Assembly: GCF_038595065.1 (NCBI RefSeq)
Contig: NZ_CP152003.1
Coordinates: 4,134,001-4,198,000, forward strand
DNA: 64,000 nt
Origin: Sutcliffiella sp. FSL R7-0096
GTDB taxonomy: Bacteria; Bacillota; Bacilli; Bacillales; Bacillaceae_I
Direction of reading: 5' to 3'
The position numbers and the translations under genes are program-made. This document shows positions 19,459 through 55,074 of this stretch, piece after piece. The notes beneath the pieces were generated by a model, which saw only the letters and a program-made list of their open reading frames with translations, was not told the origin of the DNA and did not search any database. Each line of letters begins with the position of its first letter. Within the stretch, counting starts at the first letter, position 1.

Positions 19459-22400
19459 CTATTGAATCTCACTTCTCTCCACTACGGTACCTTCCGCATC
19501 TTTCACCACTACCGTCAGCGTATAGCGTTGACCAGTATGGTTGGCAGGAATTGCAACGTCCGCATTAAACACTTCTTCACTCTCTCCTGTCACTTCATAG
19601 GCTTCTTCAGAAGAATGTTTCACTCTGCCATGCTTGTCCACTAACTCCACAGAAACCGTGAACTCACGAGTATCGCGAACATGGTTAGCAATCGTAGTGC
19701 TGACTGTTACATCAGACTTGCTTTCAAGTTTCTTCAACTCTTTTCCTTTTGCATCAAGGAATCTGTTCTCAACCGTATACTTCACTTCCGGCTCTTCGTA
19801 GGAGTCTTCCTCGTATTCCACAATATCAGCTACGCCACGAGGCTTAAGTTGAATCACTCCATTAAAGTTCCCGGAAATACCTGTCACAGTAACCAGGTCT
19901 CCATTTTCAAAGGTGAAGTCACTGAATACTAGGCCAGTACGGTTATCCACACGGACCACTACAGATTCTCCATCCTTCGTTGCCACAAATTCAAAAGTAC
20001 CAAAATTATTAACGCTCTTAAGCTCTGAAATTTCCACACCCTCAACAGATACTAGCTCCCCTTCGTTCGAGCTGCCAAGTTCTGCTGGCGTCACCACTTG
20101 AGCTGCAGGTACATCAGCAGTGCCAGTCTTTTCAAATGCAGTCAAAGAACCGATCTGGAACTCACCATTATAAGAGCCGACGGTACCTGTCACTTTTACC
20201 ACATCACCTGGAACTACATCCTCAGCGTTTTGGAATACGTACGTTCCAGCTGTTTCATCCTGTACATAGAATCCTTTTTGGCCCCATGCACCAGAAATTG
20301 TCGTAACCACACCCTCAATCGTTACCACACTGCCGTTTGCAGCTTCTCTAGCTTCTGCGATCGTCACTGTCCCGATGTCGCCGCCAGGCTCGCCCACTTC
20401 AGAGATGCGCCCTTCTGCTGCATAGTTGATTGGTCCGTCAAAACTGCGAACAAAATTCACTGTTGCTTCTAAGTCTTCCGGTCCTGTCACAGGGTTTTTG
20501 CCAAGTTCTCCGATAGGACGATACTTGCTTCCTGTGGACGTTGCCATAAAGTTGTTTGTTACAACCGTATATGTTGCTTCCTTATCGATTGGTGTTCCGT
20601 CAGGGAAAGTGATATCTACCACTTTGTAAGTGGAACCATCCCACGTATAGTGGAAACCAGCAATACTGTAGTCTGGTCCATATGGAGCCTGAAGTTGTGC
20701 ATTCATGATTGTATACAGATCTGCACCTTTAATCTCAAGCTTCATTAACACATTGTTAAATGGCTGGATGTTAAACAACTCGCCCCAAGTGATGTCCCCT
20801 TGATTTAGATTGTCACGGATTCCGCCGCCATTCATCAAGGCAAAGTCCGCATCCATTTCTGCTTTCATGCCATCTGCAATAAGGTTTCCAAGAGCATTAT
20901 CGCCAACCTCACCGCGAACGCCATATCCGCCTTCCATTGCTACTTCCGCAAATCCGACCACTTCATTCAAAATAGGCGCAATGCGATTTTCATAGTTTGC
21001 AAGAATTTCCGTTACAACTGGATCTGGATCCATTTTGCTTTGATCAACGAATACAATTTCTGCTTCCTTGTTTACGATATCGCCTGTTTCCGGATCGATT
21101 TCAAGGTCTACTGCAGAAAATGCTTTTCCATAATCCAATGCTTGGACAATCAGTTTGTTGTCCACCATTGCATTTACGATTTCGTGGTTATGTGCTGCAA
21201 AAATAACGTCCACTTCATCATCCACATTCTTCGCAAGGTTTGCCGCGTCCCCAGTAGCCGTTTCCCCTGATTGGGATGCCGGCATATGGGAAAGTACCAC
21301 AATCGCTTTGATTCCTTGCTCTTTCAATTCATCAGTCGCTTCATTGACTGCCTGTACTTCATTCGTAAACGTGATATCCTGGATGCCATCCGGGATTACC
21401 ATATTCAATGTCGCTGTTGTGTTTACACCGATAAAGCCGATTCGTTCACCGCCAACCTCTAAAATTTCATAAGGAGGCAGGAAGGTTTCACCGGAGTCTT
21501 TCCAAACACAGTTGGCACAAACATTCGGGAAGTTCATCCCTTGATAACCTTCTGTTCCTTTACCTTCCGGATGGTCTCCGCCATTTACCATACGTAAGAA
21601 TTCTTCTGTACCCTCGTCAAACTCATGGTTTCCGACAGTACCAATATCAAATCCGATTTCATTCATGATTTCAACAACCGGCTCATCTTGAAGCAATGCC
21701 GCAACAGGGGAGCTTCCTCCGATCATGTCACCAGCATGGACGATTAAAGTATTTGGATTCTGTTCTCTACGGTCTTTTAAATAAGCGGATACATAATCCA
21801 TGCGGCCTGCAGCTGCAATGCCATAGTCTCTTGATAAATCATATGTTTGATCAATTTTACCGTGTAAATCATTCATTCCTAGAAGTTGCACGGACACTAG
21901 CTCGCCTGGATTTGGATTCGGTTCTTCTCCATCTTCAGCGAGTGTGAAACCAGCTGCCAGTGCCTCCGCTTCATTCCAGAAGAAGATGCGCTTCTCAACA
22001 GGTACCTTTTCCCATTCAGTAGGCTGTACATATTCTTTTGTATCAGAGTTTCCAACCGGTTTGTTTAATGGGTTATTTTCATAGCGTGCACGGAAGAATG
22101 TTGGTAGCTCAAGTAATGGATCCTCTTCGCTCCAGATTCCTTTCCCCGCATCCTTCGCTTCCTTCACGGCAGCCTGGAATTCGTTATACTCCTCTTCCGG
22201 ACCTATCGGCCAGATGAAATAAGTCACTGCGAAACCTTCTCTTGCCATTTCAAGGTTAGTGTTCAAACGGTCTTCTTTACGTAAAACTTGAGCCAAAATC
22301 CGTCCGTAATTGTCAGTAGGCTCATCGCCGATTTTTAAAATAACTTCATCACCGGCTTTTAATAAAGATTGCATGTGTTCTGTGGCACGTTTTCCATGAT

Positions 22401-23646
22401 CCATCTGATTCTGATCAAGGTCGTTTCTGATAGAATGATAGGTTTCCGGCGTATCGATATTTACATAACGAACGCTTTGAGAACCGAATAATGGAGATGT
22501 GATACGTATCGTATCGCCATCCGTTACACGCTCTACAACCGCAGGATATTCCCCAGCTGCACTTGGTGGTTCAGGTTGTTCTGACGCCAATACGATATCG
22601 GACGCTTTTCTCGGTAAAATTTGATAGGTATTGTATTGGCTAAGGATAGCAGTAATCTCATACCACTTACCTGCTTCCAATGCATCAATCGCATTCGTAC
22701 CCTCCATCACACGTAATGTAGTGGAGTTAAAATCATTATCCGTCAATGTTACATTATATCCGCCACCAGCCGGAGAAGATGGCTTGTTGGATACATAACC
22801 TGTTACTGTTACAAGCTGGCCCTCTAAAGGTTCCGCCACAGTTGCAGATTGAAGGTCTTCAATAGTAATAGGTGTTGGTTCTGGAAGTGCTTCATTTTCT
22901 GCTAAAATTTCTATGCCATTGGAATTCGGCATGATTTCAAGCAGACCGTTATAAAGGGCGATTTTCCCTCTCACTTCTACTTTTTGCCCTTCTACAAGGT
23001 TAGGGAAACCTGATAAACTATTGGAAAACAAATTGATCCCCGCTGTTTCATCTTGTATGTAAGTGGATAGCTTCCCACCGCCAATTGCTGCATTGTCTGC
23101 TGTGACAACACCTTGAACGATGACTTCTTGTCCTACATTTTTCGTGCGCGCTTCAGCAAGTGTGATTAGTTCCGGTTCTGCTGGAGGTACAGGGTCCTGG
23201 CCGCCGTCGATGATGGTGAAAGCGGTTGGGCTTCTTAAACCTGGTACTGAAAAATACGCTTCAAGTGAACCAGTAATTTGAATTTTTGCGTGGTAGTTAC
23301 CCGGATTATCAACAAGGTTTAGTGCTGTCCTAATTGAATTATTAGGTAGTTGGACTGGTAGCATTTTTCTAATGTCTGTTTCATTCGGGGAGTCTGCAAA
23401 TGCTAGATTAGTAGCTTGGGCCCATGGAGCTTCCAAATCAAAATTATTGGTGGACACAACCGTCCCCACAATATACCCCTCTACATTCGCCGTTCCGCTA
23501 TTATTGGCAATTGCTTGCTCCACTGTAATAGCCGTTGATTGGTTCTCTGCCGCATAAGTTGTAATGTTCATAGCTGGCAAAAGATTAGAGAATACTAATA
23601 TGAAAGCTAATAGAATCATGACAACTCTTTTAGAATGATGTCGCAT
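19459..23646 (-). CDS. YhcR-like secreted multidomain nuclease / 5'-nucleotidase
   Basis: A 1395-residue exported protein. Signal peptide 1-33 (ends TTYAA). Three OB-like domains follow at about 40-355. A staphylococcal-nuclease domain lies at about 365-510 (VTDGDTIRI, VRYVNIDTPET). A calcineurin-like 5'-nucleotidase domain lies at about 585-880 (MNDLHGK near 590, GDMIGG, GNHEFDEG near 670), with its C-terminal substrate domain at about 895-1075 (NGGGIRDNL). Two more OB-like domains (1090-1290) and a C-terminal beta domain follow. The order matches B. subtilis YhcR, but I see no LPXTG/sortase signal or terminal hydrophobic anchor. It is probably released, to degrade extracellular DNA/RNA and recover nucleosides and phosphate. 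GGGAGG precedes the ATG. Confidence 0.88.
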   Translation of the reverse strand: MRHHSKRVVMILLAFILVFSNLLPAMNITTYAAENQSTAITVEQAIANNSGTANVEGYIVGTVVSTNNFDLEAPWAQATNLAFADSPNETDIRKMLPVQLPNNSIRTALNLVDNPGNYHAKIQITGSLEAYFSVPGLRSPTAFTIIDGGQDPVPPAEPELITLAEARTKNVGQEVIVQGVVTADNAAIGGGKLSTYIQDETAGINLFSNSLSGFPNLVEGQKVEVRGKIALYNGLLEIMPNSNGIEILAENEALPEPTPITIEDLQSATVAEPLEGQLVTVTGYVSNKPSSPAGGGYNVTLTDNDFNSTTLRVMEGTNAIDALEAGKWYEITAILSQYNTYQILPRKASDIVLASEQPEPPSAAGEYPAVVERVTDGDTIRITSPLFGSQSVRYVNIDTPETYHSIRNDLDQNQMDHGKRATEHMQSLLKAGDEVILKIGDEPTDNYGRILAQVLRKEDRLNTNLEMAREGFAVTYFIWPIGPEEEYNEFQAAVKEAKDAGKGIWSEEDPLLELPTFFRARYENNPLNKPVGNSDTKEYVQPTEWEKVPVEKRIFFWNEAEALAAGFTLAEDGEEPNPNPGELVSVQLLGMNDLHGKIDQTYDLSRDYGIAAAGRMDYVSAYLKDRREQNPNTLIVHAGDMIGGSSPVAALLQDEPVVEIMNEIGFDIGTVGNHEFDEGTEEFLRMVNGGDHPEGKGTEGYQGMNFPNVCANCVWKDSGETFLPPYEILEVGGERIGFIGVNTTATLNMVIPDGIQDITFTNEVQAVNEATDELKEQGIKAIVVLSHMPASQSGETATGDAANLAKNVDDEVDVIFAAHNHEIVNAMVDNKLIVQALDYGKAFSAVDLEIDPETGDIVNKEAEIVFVDQSKMDPDPVVTEILANYENRIAPILNEVVGFAEVAMEGGYGVRGEVGDNALGNLIADGMKAEMDADFALMNGGGIRDNLNQGDITWGELFNIQPFNNVLMKLEIKGADLYTIMNAQLQAPYGPDYSIAGFHYTWDGSTYKVVDITFPDGTPIDKEATYTVVTNNFMATSTGSKYRPIGELGKNPVTGPEDLEATVNFVRSFDGPINYAAEGRISEVGEPGGDIGTVTIAEAREAANGSVVTIEGVVTTISGAWGQKGFYVQDETAGTYVFQNAEDVVPGDVVKVTGTVGSYNGEFQIGSLTAFEKTGTADVPAAQVVTPAELGSSNEGELVSVEGVEISELKSVNNFGTFEFVATKDGESVVVRVDNRTGLVFSDFTFENGDLVTVTGISGNFNGVIQLKPRGVADIVEYEEDSYEEPEVKYTVENRFLDAKGKELKKLESKSDVTVSTTIANHVRDTREFTVSVELVDKHGRVKHSSEEAYEVTGESEEVFNADVAIPANHTGQRYTLTVVVKDAEGTVVERSEIQ

Positions 23647-23772
23647 TTGTTTTCCTCCCTCTATAAATATTGATATATCAACGGTTTGACCCGTTGGTGG
23701 GATGTCAAAAAAATATTTTTCGACATACTCCCTAACAGATATTAATAAATTTGTGATTCTCTTACATTTGGT

Positions 23773-23872
23773 GGGTACGCTACGCGGTCACTACTGGGTA
23801 ATGATGGTAAAGTAGTGATCATTGGATATACGATGCACAATGGATCTCTGCGTAGCTTATGATGACGTACCC
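23773..23872 (-). ncRNA. Candidate bridge RNA (seekRNA) of the IS110 element
   Basis: A 100-bp non-coding stretch 3' of the transposase folds on paper into nested stems. GGGTAC (23773) pairs with GTACCC (23867) and GCTACGC (23779) with GCGTAGC (23850). GGTCACTAC (23786) pairs with GTAGTGATC (23812) around a 17-nt loop. GATCATTG (23817) pairs with CAATGGATC (23838), with a bulged G, around a 13-nt loop; the last two share GATC and are alternatives in part. IS110-family recombinases use a non-coding RNA from an element end with internal loops that choose donor and target. Strand is assigned by that analogy. Confidence 0.5.
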
Positions 23873-24035
23873 TCCCATGTCTCTGGGCATCAGTGTGCCT
23901 ACATTCCTTCGTTCGGTCTAGTCATAAGGCAGAGGCTAGCGAAGCTCCTTTAGGGACTCGAGGTCGAATGGAAAAAATAGTGCCAGCTTCTCCGTGTCAT
24001 CCTGTTGTCTAGGTCTTTAAAGGGGATGCAGGACT

Positions 24036-25313
24036 TTACATAGCCTCTGCGAGACTAGGAATATCCCTCATCATTCGCTTTGCGTCAAACGCTTTGTGCT
24101 TCGTGCTGATTCCATGGAGAACTTTTAAGAGTTTTCCGCATAGGACCACGATGGATTGCTTCTTGCGTAACGGATTATCCTTACGGTTTGTGTAGTAATC
24201 ATGGAGCCTTTTAAAAGCTTCATTATGGCGAATCATCGGCATCATCACTCGGAATAGGAGGGAACGAAGCTTTCTTCTGCCCCTTTTGGAGATTCGCTTT
24301 TGTCCTTTGTGCTGGCCGGAGGAATTTTCCCGTAATGTCAATCCCGCGAGTTTGATTAGTTGGCGTGGATCTTCATAGTGAGAAAAGCTTCCGATTTCAG
24401 CTAGTAAATCGACAATCGTGGTATCTCCAAGTCCAGGAACCGTTGAGAGCCATTCGTATTCTACTGATGTTTGGATAAGTTCAACCAGGTGCTGCGTAAT
24501 GCTTTCAATCTCTTGTTCTAACTGGTGGTAACGGCGAACGAGTGTGGCAATTTCCATACGGGCCATCTCCCGTCCTTCTGTTACCCCGATCGAGTCTGAA
24601 GCGAGTTCTATCAGTCGTATGGCTTTCGGCCTTTGGGGGGATTTGAGCCCCTCGACCTTACGGTAAAGTGCCAATACTTCATCCGGTTGTTTCTGATGAA
24701 GATCGGCCGGAAATGGTGTGCACTCCAGGACAGCCATTGCCATCTTTCCGAATGTCGGAAAGACCTGGGTGAACTCAGGAAAATAGCGATCCAGCCAGCG
24801 AATGACCATGTTTTTGACGGCACCCAGTTCCTCTGTCAACTTGCTTCTGAACGTTGAACCCACACGGAGTTCAGCCTCCACATCCTTTAGGATACGAGGA
24901 TAACTGAAGCGTCCATCTTTAATCAGGCGAGCGATAACTAACGCATCTTTACGGTCATGTTTGGTTGGCAAGTTGTCATCCAATTCTTTTGACCGCTTAA
25001 CGTGCATAGGATTGGTCATCACCAGGGGAATGCCTCGTTCCTCAAGGAAATAGGCTAGATTAAGCCAGTAATGGCCGGTAGGTTCAATCCCGACAATGAC
25101 CTCCGTCTTTTCGTATTCTTTCATGGCAGCCAAAATACGCTCGTAAAAACGATCAAAACCGTCGCTAGACTGTAATACCGAAAAAGATTTTTGAAGCACA
25201 CGCCCACGGTCATCGACAAAGCAGGCGAAGTGTTTCCGCTTTGCAATATCGATTCCGACTACAAGTGTATTTTCGGTGACTTGATTTATCTTCTGATTTT
25301 GTTTAAAATCCAT
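24036..25313 (-). CDS. IS110-family DEDD transposase
   Basis: A 425-residue serine/DEDD recombinase. The RuvC-like N-terminal domain shows VGIDIAKRKH (Asp), VGIEPTGHYW (Glu) and KHDRKDALVIARL (Asp pair). The C-terminal Transposase_20 domain shows STVPGLGDTTIVDLLAEIG, and NSSGQHKGQKRISKRG with the candidate catalytic Ser. All motifs are intact, so it may be active. AAGGAGG lies just upstream of the ATG. The long non-coding 3' end is the arrangement of the IS1111 group; group membership is inferred. Confidence 0.93.
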   Translation of the reverse strand: MDFKQNQKINQVTENTLVVGIDIAKRKHFACFVDDRGRVLQKSFSVLQSSDGFDRFYERILAAMKEYEKTEVIVGIEPTGHYWLNLAYFLEERGIPLVMTNPMHVKRSKELDDNLPTKHDRKDALVIARLIKDGRFSYPRILKDVEAELRVGSTFRSKLTEELGAVKNMVIRWLDRYFPEFTQVFPTFGKMAMAVLECTPFPADLHQKQPDEVLALYRKVEGLKSPQRPKAIRLIELASDSIGVTEGREMARMEIATLVRRYHQLEQEIESITQHLVELIQTSVEYEWLSTVPGLGDTTIVDLLAEIGSFSHYEDPRQLIKLAGLTLRENSSGQHKGQKRISKRGRRKLRSLLFRVMMPMIRHNEAFKRLHDYYTNRKDNPLRKKQSIVVLCGKLLKVLHGISTKHKAFDAKRMMRDIPSLAEAM

Positions 25314-25342
25314 GTTGGAGTCCTCCTTGGTTACCTAAGTTA

Positions 25343-25405
25343 GGGGTCAATTCGGTGCACGATTTGACACCCCGTATCATACCAAGAGGGCTCTTTTTTG
25401 TTCAA
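25343..25405 (-). promoter_or_regulatory. Transposase promoter and leader hairpin
   Basis: On the minus strand TTGAAC (25405-25400), 18 bp, TATGAT (25381-25376). A hairpin GGGGTGTCAA / TTGACCCC (25373-25343) lies at the predicted 5' end of the message and may limit translation. The stretch from 25433 to about 25820 is AT-rich and I see no gene in it. Confidence 0.55.
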
Positions 25406-25823
25406 GTCCCCGAAAATCCTTCTAACAGGAATGCTCCTTTATAATAGTTGGACGTCGTACACTTTCCCAATATACGTGAACTGTGTAAACGCATTGTTGT
25501 TTTGCAGTAAAGCAATTGTAAAAATTCTTTAAAGTCTAACAACTTCAACTATATTATGCAGGACGTTCATTAAAGTGGACATACGACATATTAACCTAAT
25601 TTGCTACACTGAATAGTCCAATAGTTTCAAAAATAATCAGAATAATAGGTTTTTTGTCACATTAAGGGATATATTAACAATATTGAGTTGTAATATCTGA
25701 AATAAAAAACCATCCCCTCAGCTAGCATGAGAGAAACGGTCACCTATATCTAGTGATTTTTGAATTCCAGCACTCCCCCATCAATCTCGAGAGAAATAGA
25801 AACGTTTGTAAATAAAAGAAGCA

Positions 25824-26078
25824 CACCGATAAGTGTGCTTCTCAGTGTGTAGACAAAGTCATTTGAAGTTATAGTTTCCCCGTTGATCGCAGTGAAAGGA
25901 GCGTAGACTCCTGCGGGAGGAAAGGACATGGAAGACCCCGCAGGGCGTAGCCCGAGGAGGCTTCCGGACTGCCCGCGGAAAGCGAAGCTCCTGTAACGGA
26001 GATCAACTGTTATAGGTAATAACCAAACTAATCTATAGTTTGTCAACAGTCTGAGAAGCACACCGATAAGTGTGCTTC
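25824..26078 (-). repeat. R1 interspersed repeat, copy F, flanked by duplicated hairpins
   Basis: The core (25880-26010) runs from CGTTGATCGC to GATCAACTG with GGAGCGTAGACTCCTGCGGG, GACCCCGC and CCCGAGGAGGCTTCCGG, a divergent R1 subtype in reverse sense. The same 26-bp hairpin (AGAAGCACAC / GTGTGCTTCT, loop CGATAA) stands on each side, near 25825-25850 and 26053-26078. The right copy directly follows the yueD stop and would act as its terminator. Confidence 0.75.
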
Positions 26079-26837
26079 TTAGAGGAATTCTTTAATATCA
26101 TAGACTCTTCCGTTTTCTACATTACTTGAAAATAGTAAATCAATCATTTTTTTGGCTACAAACTCCGGACTTCTTAATTGCCCCTCTTCATGGTAGGATT
26201 TGAACATTTCTACATTATTGAAATTCTCTTTGTCAGAGCTACGGATGACTCCTTGCATAGCTGTATCCATGATCCCTGGTGAAAAAGAGAGAATGGTTGT
26301 CGGATGTGTAGCTTGGCTTTGCTCGAGTCCTACCGTTTTCGTGAACATATCTAGCCCGGCCTTTGTCGTGCAATAGGTGTTCCAACCATGGATTGGATGA
26401 TTTGCTGCACCGGAACTGATATTGACAATTACCTTTTTGCAGGTCCATTCCTCCGTCAGCCGGATGAATTCATTTGTCATGAGCATCGGTGTAAGGAGGT
26501 TGAGATGAACAGCTTTGATCATCGCGGACTCCTCCGCTTTCCCAGCAGGCTTTATCGGGTCGACCATTCCTGCATTGTTAATCAAGTATATTCCCTCCAC
26601 CTGATCATCTTCTTCGATGGTTGCTAAAAGATATTGTACAATCCCAGTCACCCGTTCATGCTTGCTCAAATCTTCTTGTAATAAAGTGATTTTTGCACCA
26701 TTCTGTTTTGCTGCCAGTTCTAGATCCTTATTTTCATTTCTAGCAATGCATATTACATGATGGTTTTCTTTTAATAGTAGTTTTACTGTAGCTTCTCCAA
26801 GTCCTTTAGAAGAGCCTGTGACGATAAAATAGTTCAT
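26079..26837 (-). CDS. yueD: (S)-benzoin-forming benzil reductase / short-chain dehydrogenase
   Basis: A 252-residue classical SDR. NADP-binding TGSSKGLGE (residues 7-15), NNAGM (about 90) and the catalytic Ser..Tyr-x3-Lys (NISSGAANHPIHGWNTYCTTKAG, about 143-162) are present. It resembles the YueD benzil reductases of Bacillus. Natural substrate is uncertain. A strong hairpin follows the stop. The M50 peptidase gene lies 15 bp upstream, so the two are likely an operon. Confidence 0.85.
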   Translation of the reverse strand: MNYFIVTGSSKGLGEATVKLLLKENHHVICIARNENKDLELAAKQNGAKITLLQEDLSKHERVTGIVQYLLATIEEDDQVEGIYLINNAGMVDPIKPAGKAEESAMIKAVHLNLLTPMLMTNEFIRLTEEWTCKKVIVNISSGAANHPIHGWNTYCTTKAGLDMFTKTVGLEQSQATHPTTILSFSPGIMDTAMQGVIRSSDKENFNNVEMFKSYHEEGQLRSPEFVAKKMIDLLFSSNVENGRVYDIKEFL

Positions 26838-54949: not shown

Positions 54950-55074
54950 CTGTTGAATTCCGCAATAGGCTTCGCTTTCCGCGGGGCGATGCTTGAGCCT
55001 CCTCACTTCGTTGCGGGGTCTCAAGCTACCGCTTCCCTCCCGCAGGAGTCTCCGCCTTTTGCTCCATTCAACAG
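54950..55074 (+). repeat. R1 interspersed repeat, copy J
   Basis: About 125 bp bounded by CTGTTGAA and TTCAACAG, with GGCTTCGCTTTCCGCGGGGC and GAGCCTCCTCAC. It lies inside the 408-bp gap between two permease genes of one operon (54800-55207); the rest of the gap shows no gene or clear terminator. Confidence 0.85.

Follow-up and report, generated by a model that had tools for sequence, protein, structure and literature searches.

In the IS1111 group of the IS110 family, the elements ISEc11, ISPa11, ISKpn4 and ISPst6 carry their longer non-coding end downstream of the transposase, and their guide RNA (seekRNA) places the top-strand complement before the bottom-strand match, according to the description of these elements in PMC11187229. 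Subterminal inverted repeats of 7-17 bp are a further mark of the group, whereas members of the narrow-sense IS110 group have their RNA in the 5' end. The insertion element analyzed here lay in a window of 64,000 nucleotides (the whole stretch of DNA that was analyzed), where it occupied 23655-25433 of the minus strand, 1,779 bp with its AG core counted once. Its non-coding ends measured 381 nt on the 3' side and 120 nt on the 5' side, so that the 3' end was the longer one, as in the four elements above, and the RNA was found downstream of the transposase and not in the 5' end. In the minus-strand RNA the right guide (23971-23978) preceded the left guide (23945-23952), that is, the top-strand complement came first and the bottom-strand match followed. 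The subterminal inverted repeats were deep inside the ends, and in 46 of 60 copies their GTGTCA core occurred in the subterminal stretches of both ends, a count made without a shuffle control. The core of the element, AG in the direction of the transposase and CT on the complementary strand, agreed with the CT core of the IS110 family, and two guide loops matched the target (a tested match) and the donor (a match only), as expected of the structured RNA of this family. The transposase, which the preliminary description had called an intact DEDD enzyme, was confirmed as such. It matched PF01548 (1.1e-34) and PF02371 (8.6e-24), which are the DEDD_Tnp_IS110 and Transposase_20 domains, scored 221.8 bits against NCBIfam NF033542 (cut-off 140), and aligned with the IS621 structure at 1.6e-11. 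This alignment placed the DEDD residues at D22, E77, D120 and D123 and the serine at S332, with the catalytic residues that the account of IS621 in PMC11208158 gives as the reference. The element belongs to the IS110 family and is of the IS1111 type, its bridge RNA (seekRNA) being encoded in the 3' end; the same assignment had been proposed at the outset, and it is supported by the lengths of the two ends and the order of the guides. The features of the locus are collected in Table 1.

Table 1. Features of the element and its surroundings, with positions in the window
Feature	Position	Strand	Basis
Target gene, 1395 aa, nuclease and 5'-nucleotidase domains	19459-23646	-	Pfam SNase, Metallophos, 5_nucleotid_C
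AG core, element 3' end	23655-23656	-	CT on plus strand; flank comparison, own copies and relatives
Subterminal inverted repeat, 3' copy TTTGACATCCC	23699-23709	-	11 bp, one mismatch
Covarying hairpin downstream of the bridge RNA (earlier 17-nt-loop stem)	23789-23817	-	Both-side change at 6/6 pairs
Bridge RNA (seekRNA), 173 nt as modelled	23830-24002	-	RNAalifold, pair counts, covariance model, wider set
Left donor guide GGGAG within CAUGGGAG, donor loop 3' side	23872-23879	-	Equals element 3' end GGGAG
Right donor guide AGGAAUG, donor loop 5' side	23902-23908	-	Complement of element start CATTCCT
Left target guide UAAAGGAG, target loop 3' side	23945-23952	-	Equals left target flank; guide-target tests
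Right target guide AUUUUUUC, target loop 5' side	23971-23978	-	Complement of GAAAAAAT; guide-target tests
IS110-family transposase, 425 aa, intact	24036-25313	-	Pfam, NCBIfam, IS621 structure alignment
Arm holding the Shine-Dalgarno sequence of the transposase gene, AAGGAGG	25317-25334	-	Predicted pairing
Subterminal inverted repeat, 5' copy GGGGTGTCAAA	25363-25373	-	11 bp, one mismatch
Promoter-like TTGAAC-18-TATGAT, for transposase and RNA	25376-25405	-	Consensus scan 9/12; conserved in alignment A4; not by itself evidence of function
Leader segment AGAGCCCUCUUGGUA, can pair with the transposase Shine-Dalgarno arm	25380-25394	-	Predicted pairing
AG core, element 5' end	25434-25435	-	AAAGG beyond is target; flank comparison, own copies and relatives
			

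The host genome carried seven copies of the element with 100% identity over a 1.75-kb query. Comparison of their flanks, the alignment of genomic copies that the preliminary description had called for, revealed a block common to all seven at 23654-25438 with diverging sequence outside, and moved the ends of the element from 23690..25432 to those given above. Read along the transposase strand, the 5' end was AGGAG|CATTCCTGTTAG in all seven copies, and their 3' end was TTTATAGAGGGAGG. The site of the window copy was empty in three congeners (L190, L191 and L192), where it read AAAGGAGGAAAACAA-ATGCGACATC upstream of the same gene and the ATG of that gene followed AAAGGAGGAAAACAA. The flank upstream of the window copy was 92% identical to L190 over 405 bases, reaching the empty site, and the leaders of the same gene in L193 and L194 were diverged. 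According to the three empty sites, the window copy occupied the Shine-Dalgarno sequence of the nuclease and 5'-nucleotidase gene. For another copy (L003), the empty site in genome G011 was AAAGGAGGATTAAT-ATG, and GGAGGAT stood at the site in all 13 in-register loci of the 15 relative loci compared for the gene next to this copy; the motif failed to place the start in L113 and L114, although GGAGGATCA was still visible before an ATG. A contig scan of genomes provided 74 relative loci, which gave 71 readable 3' ends when the seven own copies were included, and the 3' non-coding ends of the relatives were closely alike. One relative (L118, 91% protein identity) was found on an IMG/VR viral contig, the one confirmed among five candidate stretches. 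Another copy stood just before the start of a CBASS-type oligonucleotide cyclase gene (L006:421-1455, minus strand; PADLOC Cyclase 3.9e-122, Pfam DncV-like). The same host genome also contained a second, distant IS110-type set (L015-L019) with three intact frames (about 27% identity), one frame with four stops and one partial frame.

RNAalifold analysis of 38 relatives over 23771-24002 showed a closing stem that was nearly invariant and two stem-loops, one for the target and one for the donor, with a separate hairpin after the bridge RNA. The alignment (A1) held 38 of 39 representatives, L064 with its chimeric 5' part being excluded, and alignment A2 held 28 of these 38 relatives. In the bridge fold, 98.8% of the cells were paired over 58 pairs, and both-side changes occurred at 11 of the 58 pairs among these close relatives (0/500 shuffles). 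Cells with both-side change numbered 31, compared with 5.2 in the shuffles (0/500), and sliding the pair partners lowered the pairing to 27-41%. A wider set of 21 distinct, mostly diverged sequences showed both-side changes at 34 of 49 pairs and a covariation score of 0.403 versus 0.189 in shuffles (0/500), with the reservation that this alignment (A3) was fitted to the covariance model and is biased toward it. The covariance model matched at least 117 of 397 genomes of the order, which were a sample from a larger group. The stability of the single bridge RNA was ordinary (118/200 shuffles were as stable) and was therefore not used as evidence. A scan of the window against Rfam gave no match at gathering scores, and a consensus scan for a minus-strand terminator in the 3' end of the element found none. 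Expression and processing of the bridge RNA are predicted. The preliminary description had named a lack of covariation in homologues, element ends that leave out 23773-23872 and a guide-like RNA in the 5' end as outcomes that would speak against a guide RNA here. The relatives covaried, the corrected ends included that region, and the 5' non-coding end, where guides were sought by eye, was conserved but had compensatory changes at 0 of 25 predicted pairs.

The target guides lay within 23945-23978 and the donor guides within 23872-23908. With the ends corrected, the loops of the bridge RNA could be compared with the flanks, and they matched. Read as letters, the target loop (UAAAGGAG plus the complement of GAAAAAAT) is a spelling of a Shine-Dalgarno sequence plus spacer. 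In Heyndrickxia sporothermodurans, all 21 copies that were read had UAUAGGAG as the left guide, and still other words occurred elsewhere. Flank position -6 agreed with the left guide in 57 of 62 copies and disagreed in 5, and no shuffle among copies reached the left-guide agreement (0/5000), nor did any when each genome was represented by a single copy (n=33). When the six non-core letters were compared in 61 copies, all six matched in 12 copies, five in 28, four in 19 and three in 2. In 13 groups the left guide matched its own flank at 4.76 versus 2.69 of 6 letters (0/20000), and the own flank was the best in 13/13. The right guide matched its own target at 5.10 versus 3.59 of 8 letters in the same test (0/20000), the own target being the best in only 6/13, and it was slid over four registers for observed and shuffled pairs alike. 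These groups were hand-picked, with H. sporothermodurans represented by 7 of its 21 copies, and used strings entered by hand; related groups in the guide shuffles are not independent. When the left guide was tested more widely, on 20 guide words from 89 copies, the agreement was 4.33 versus 2.37 of 6 letters (0/20000) with the own flank best or tied in 15/20; 11 of 38 relative rows were dropped from it (eight without a recognized 5' end and three without flank sequence), and one word (4 copies) was misread yet kept, which lowered the observed value. Inside the close clade, the right guide was weak (3.23 versus 2.94 of 7 letters for the best of seven registers, 10/2000 shuffles, uncorrected for the seven registers). 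Pairing of the right guide with the target is supported by these tests, more weakly than that of the left guide. The donor guides were nearly invariant and therefore provided a match only, not a covariation result, and the donor pairing is a predicted one.

The best explanation of these results, with a probability of about 0.88, is an IS1111-type bridge-RNA element aimed at a Shine-Dalgarno sequence and its spacer. The DEDD/serine recombinase would work with the 3'-encoded bridge RNA, of which the 3' side of the target loop (UAAAGGAG) would pair with the bottom strand of TAAAGG-AG-GAAAAAA and the 5' side (AUUUUUUC) with its top strand, this target representing a Shine-Dalgarno sequence and an A-rich spacer before the start codon. 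AGGAAUG and GGGAG, on the two sides of the donor loop, would bind the ends of the element in their joined form, GAGGG-AG-CATTCCT. With recombination at the AG core (CT opposite), the element would enter the gene leader in the orientation of the gene, and GGGAGG would remain in place of the Shine-Dalgarno sequence. The element ends, empty sites, RNA fold, covariation of left guide and target, and enrichment at gene starts, all read from sequence, argue for this scheme. The chemistry of the recombination would be that of IS621, by homology, and the re-forming of a Shine-Dalgarno sequence may be of benefit.

To characterize the insertion sites, a start codon (ATG/GTG/TTG) that opens a reading frame of at least 50 codons was sought 4-13 nt after the core. 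It was present at 47 of 71 sites, compared with 120/583 for AGGAG, 65/153 for AGGAGG and 2148/28200 for random places, the controls being drawn from the flanks of the same loci with frames that may run past the locus end. With ATG alone, 35 of 71 sites were positive versus 81/583, 45/153 and 998/28200 for the same controls. Such an ATG was most often 8 nt (13 cases) or 9 nt (11 cases) from the core. The start and frame test failed at 24 of the 71 sites; the counts include two sites (L071 and L060) that were read a few bases late, with GGGAG occurring twice there. As the 47 of 71 sites exceed these controls, the usual target is taken to be a Shine-Dalgarno sequence, and the element appears to be guided by its RNA to ribosome-binding sites immediately before genes. 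By eye, one copy (L004) seemed to be inside a coding frame, with a downstream flank that resembled a tyrosine recombinase, and the target word is therefore also used outside gene starts.

Diverged relatives mostly kept the ends GAGGGAG and AGC(T)ATTCCTGT, yet occupied other targets that matched their own loops. In G362 the guide GCAGGAG corresponded to the target CGCAGGAG-TCTTCG; in G305 the guides GGGGCAG and the complement of GTTAGTTG corresponded to GGGGCAG-GTTAGTTGAA; and in G132 the guides AAGAAAG and the complement of TATAAAAAT corresponded to AAGAAAG-TATAAAAATTTT. No 5' end was recognized in L167 and L168. A start codon opening a reading frame of 50 codons or longer followed 7 of 12 sites with Shine-Dalgarno-like guides versus 1 of 24 sites with other guides, in guide groups set by eye after seeing the data and with about 320 downstream bases covered. 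The target of G305 (GAACTAA..GGGGCAG..TTAGTTGAA; flanks of L173-L176) resembled by eye a short palindromic repeat, and the clade may therefore switch between repeats and Shine-Dalgarno sequences. In the window, two 29-nt hairpin repeats (25817-25845 and 26054-26082) flanked a stretch with CCCGCAGGAGTC, which recurred at 55039-55050 and resembled the site taken by the retargeted relatives of genome G362.

The excess of 47/71 over the AGGAGG control speaks against a rival account, in which the guide recognizes no more than a purine-rich word, this word is common at gene starts, and the Shine-Dalgarno function plays no part. Against that account, the left and right guides jointly spelled the Shine-Dalgarno sequence plus spacer, and the right guides UUUUCACC, found in 24 copies (21 of one genome), completed AGGAGGTGA. 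Pairing nevertheless reads letters alone, 65 of the 153 AGGAGG controls already passed the start and frame test, and the repeat-aimed relatives carried the same GAGGGAG 3' end. Since this end also occurs in relatives aimed elsewhere, the rebuilding of the Shine-Dalgarno sequence may be luck and not design. The word-only account is a serious contender, with a chance that we put somewhat short of even.

The preliminary description had placed the guide RNA at 23773-23872 and had taken loops of 17 and 13 nt as its guides, which would pair with DNA. The four stems of that fold can form, with a minimum free energy of -26.7 kcal/mol on the minus strand. Shuffling showed that 2/200 sequences were as stable on the minus strand (z -2.94) and 1/200 on the plus strand (z -2.76), whereas the hairpin at 23784-23820 alone was matched by 0/200 (z -5.0); the region is more structured than chance, and "far beyond chance" was strong wording for the whole fold. 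Among the 38 relatives, the CACTAC/GTAGTG stem was paired in 97.8% of the cells with both-side change at 6/6 pairs, and the CATTG/CAATG stem (GATCATTG/CAATGGATC) with the 13-nt loop was paired in 35.4% and was not conserved. The outer stems GGGTAC/GTACCC and GCTACGC/GCGTAGC were paired in 93.8% and 89.8% with both-side change at 0/6 and 1/7 pairs, and their worst single pairs were unpaired in 9/38 and 13/38 sequences. The structure as a whole exceeded its shuffles on the covariation score (0/500), mainly through the CACTAC/GTAGTG hairpin. One of the four proposed stems was thus borne out by covariation, one was not conserved, and the two outer ones, with both-side change at 1 of 13 pairs together, had almost no compensatory support and used bases that are also part of the better supported bridge fold. 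The RNA as now modelled overlaps the earlier region only at 23830-23872, with the covarying hairpin outside it, and the guides were located at 23872-23978 instead of in the 17- and 13-nt loops. The target and donor matches sit in the loops of the 23830-24002 fold, and the 17-nt loop was variable in the alignment with no target match seen by eye. That the earlier fold is itself the guide RNA is very improbable, in spite of its stability, its covarying hairpin, its well-paired outer stems and its conserved 3' strand. This conserved strand (GCGTAGCGTACCC, 23784-23800), downstream of the bridge RNA, may take part in an alternative fold by pairing with the arm of the donor loop.

An account in which the recombinase protein alone reads AAGGAGG and the resemblance of the RNA is a by-product is scarcely tenable, for although close relatives share target and guide by descent, the target letters changed with the loop letters across groups while the donor ends stayed similar, and family members described in PMC11187229 and PMC11208160 use such an RNA.

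The bridge-RNA element may also control its transposase through the leader. The segment that can pair with the Shine-Dalgarno arm of the transposase sits between the two promoter boxes. RNA from the element promoter would lack this hiding segment, and read-through RNA from the host would include it, so that the segment could keep the transposase silent in host messages. Hiding of the transposase Shine-Dalgarno sequence in read-through RNA is a device of other insertion sequences. The leader pairing was conserved but had 0 compensatory pairs, and the leader was no more stable than its shuffles (36/200 as stable); silencing of the transposase in this way could occur. A broader picture would be that of a widespread Bacillales bridge-RNA clade selected for insertion into Shine-Dalgarno sequences, with the host site rebuilt, the leader silencing the transposase in read-through RNA, and some right guides (UUUUCACC) echoing the anti-Shine-Dalgarno end of 16S rRNA. 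For this picture as a whole the odds are about even. If it is true, very many gene-start targets would be available per genome, and a working Shine-Dalgarno sequence would be rebuilt for the host gene.

The machinery is already known, and the apparently new part is the Shine-Dalgarno sequence as a programmed target. An open literature search, with the supplementary target logos of PMC11187229 outside its scope, found no report of such a target. With a guide RNA directed at the signal for translation start, a transposon could select the starts of genes as a whole class in place of a single repeat or site. The roughly 20 natural left guides with their flanks are data from which the rules of pairing in IS1111-type bridge RNAs could be derived, and the clade supplies recombinases from Gram-positive hosts. 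It also raises a testable question: whether a programmable recombinase can settle cheaply in gene leaders by leaving a ribosome-binding site behind.

Natural retargeting among relatives, as seen here, is likewise described for the seekRNA elements of the IS1111 group in PMC11187229. The long RNA of that group is 145-170 nt in the same description, compared with the 173 nt modelled here from sequence alone. The targets described there are a short linear sequence, attC ends and REP sequences, whereas those found here were mainly Shine-Dalgarno sequences. The inverted repeats of the present element lie about 60 and 44 bp inside its ends, unlike those of the IS1111-group seekRNA elements as PMC11187229 presents them. 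The ISCro4 transposase (PDB 9t56, 8.4e-11) is a homologous recombinase, and so is that of IS621, which also has two guide loops in the accounts of PMC11208160 and PMC11208158. The core of IS621 is CT in the account of PMC11208158, and here CT is found on the strand opposite the transposase. In both elements the two sides of a loop read opposite strands, to judge from the description of IS621 in PMC11208160. The RNA of IS621 is located in the 5' end and the 5' side of its loop reads the bottom strand, as described in PMC11208160, whereas this element has its RNA in the 3' end, with the opposite order when judged by the transposase strand. When read from the CT strand, the 5' side of the loop of this element pairs with the bottom strand, like that of IS621 as it is depicted in PMC11208160.
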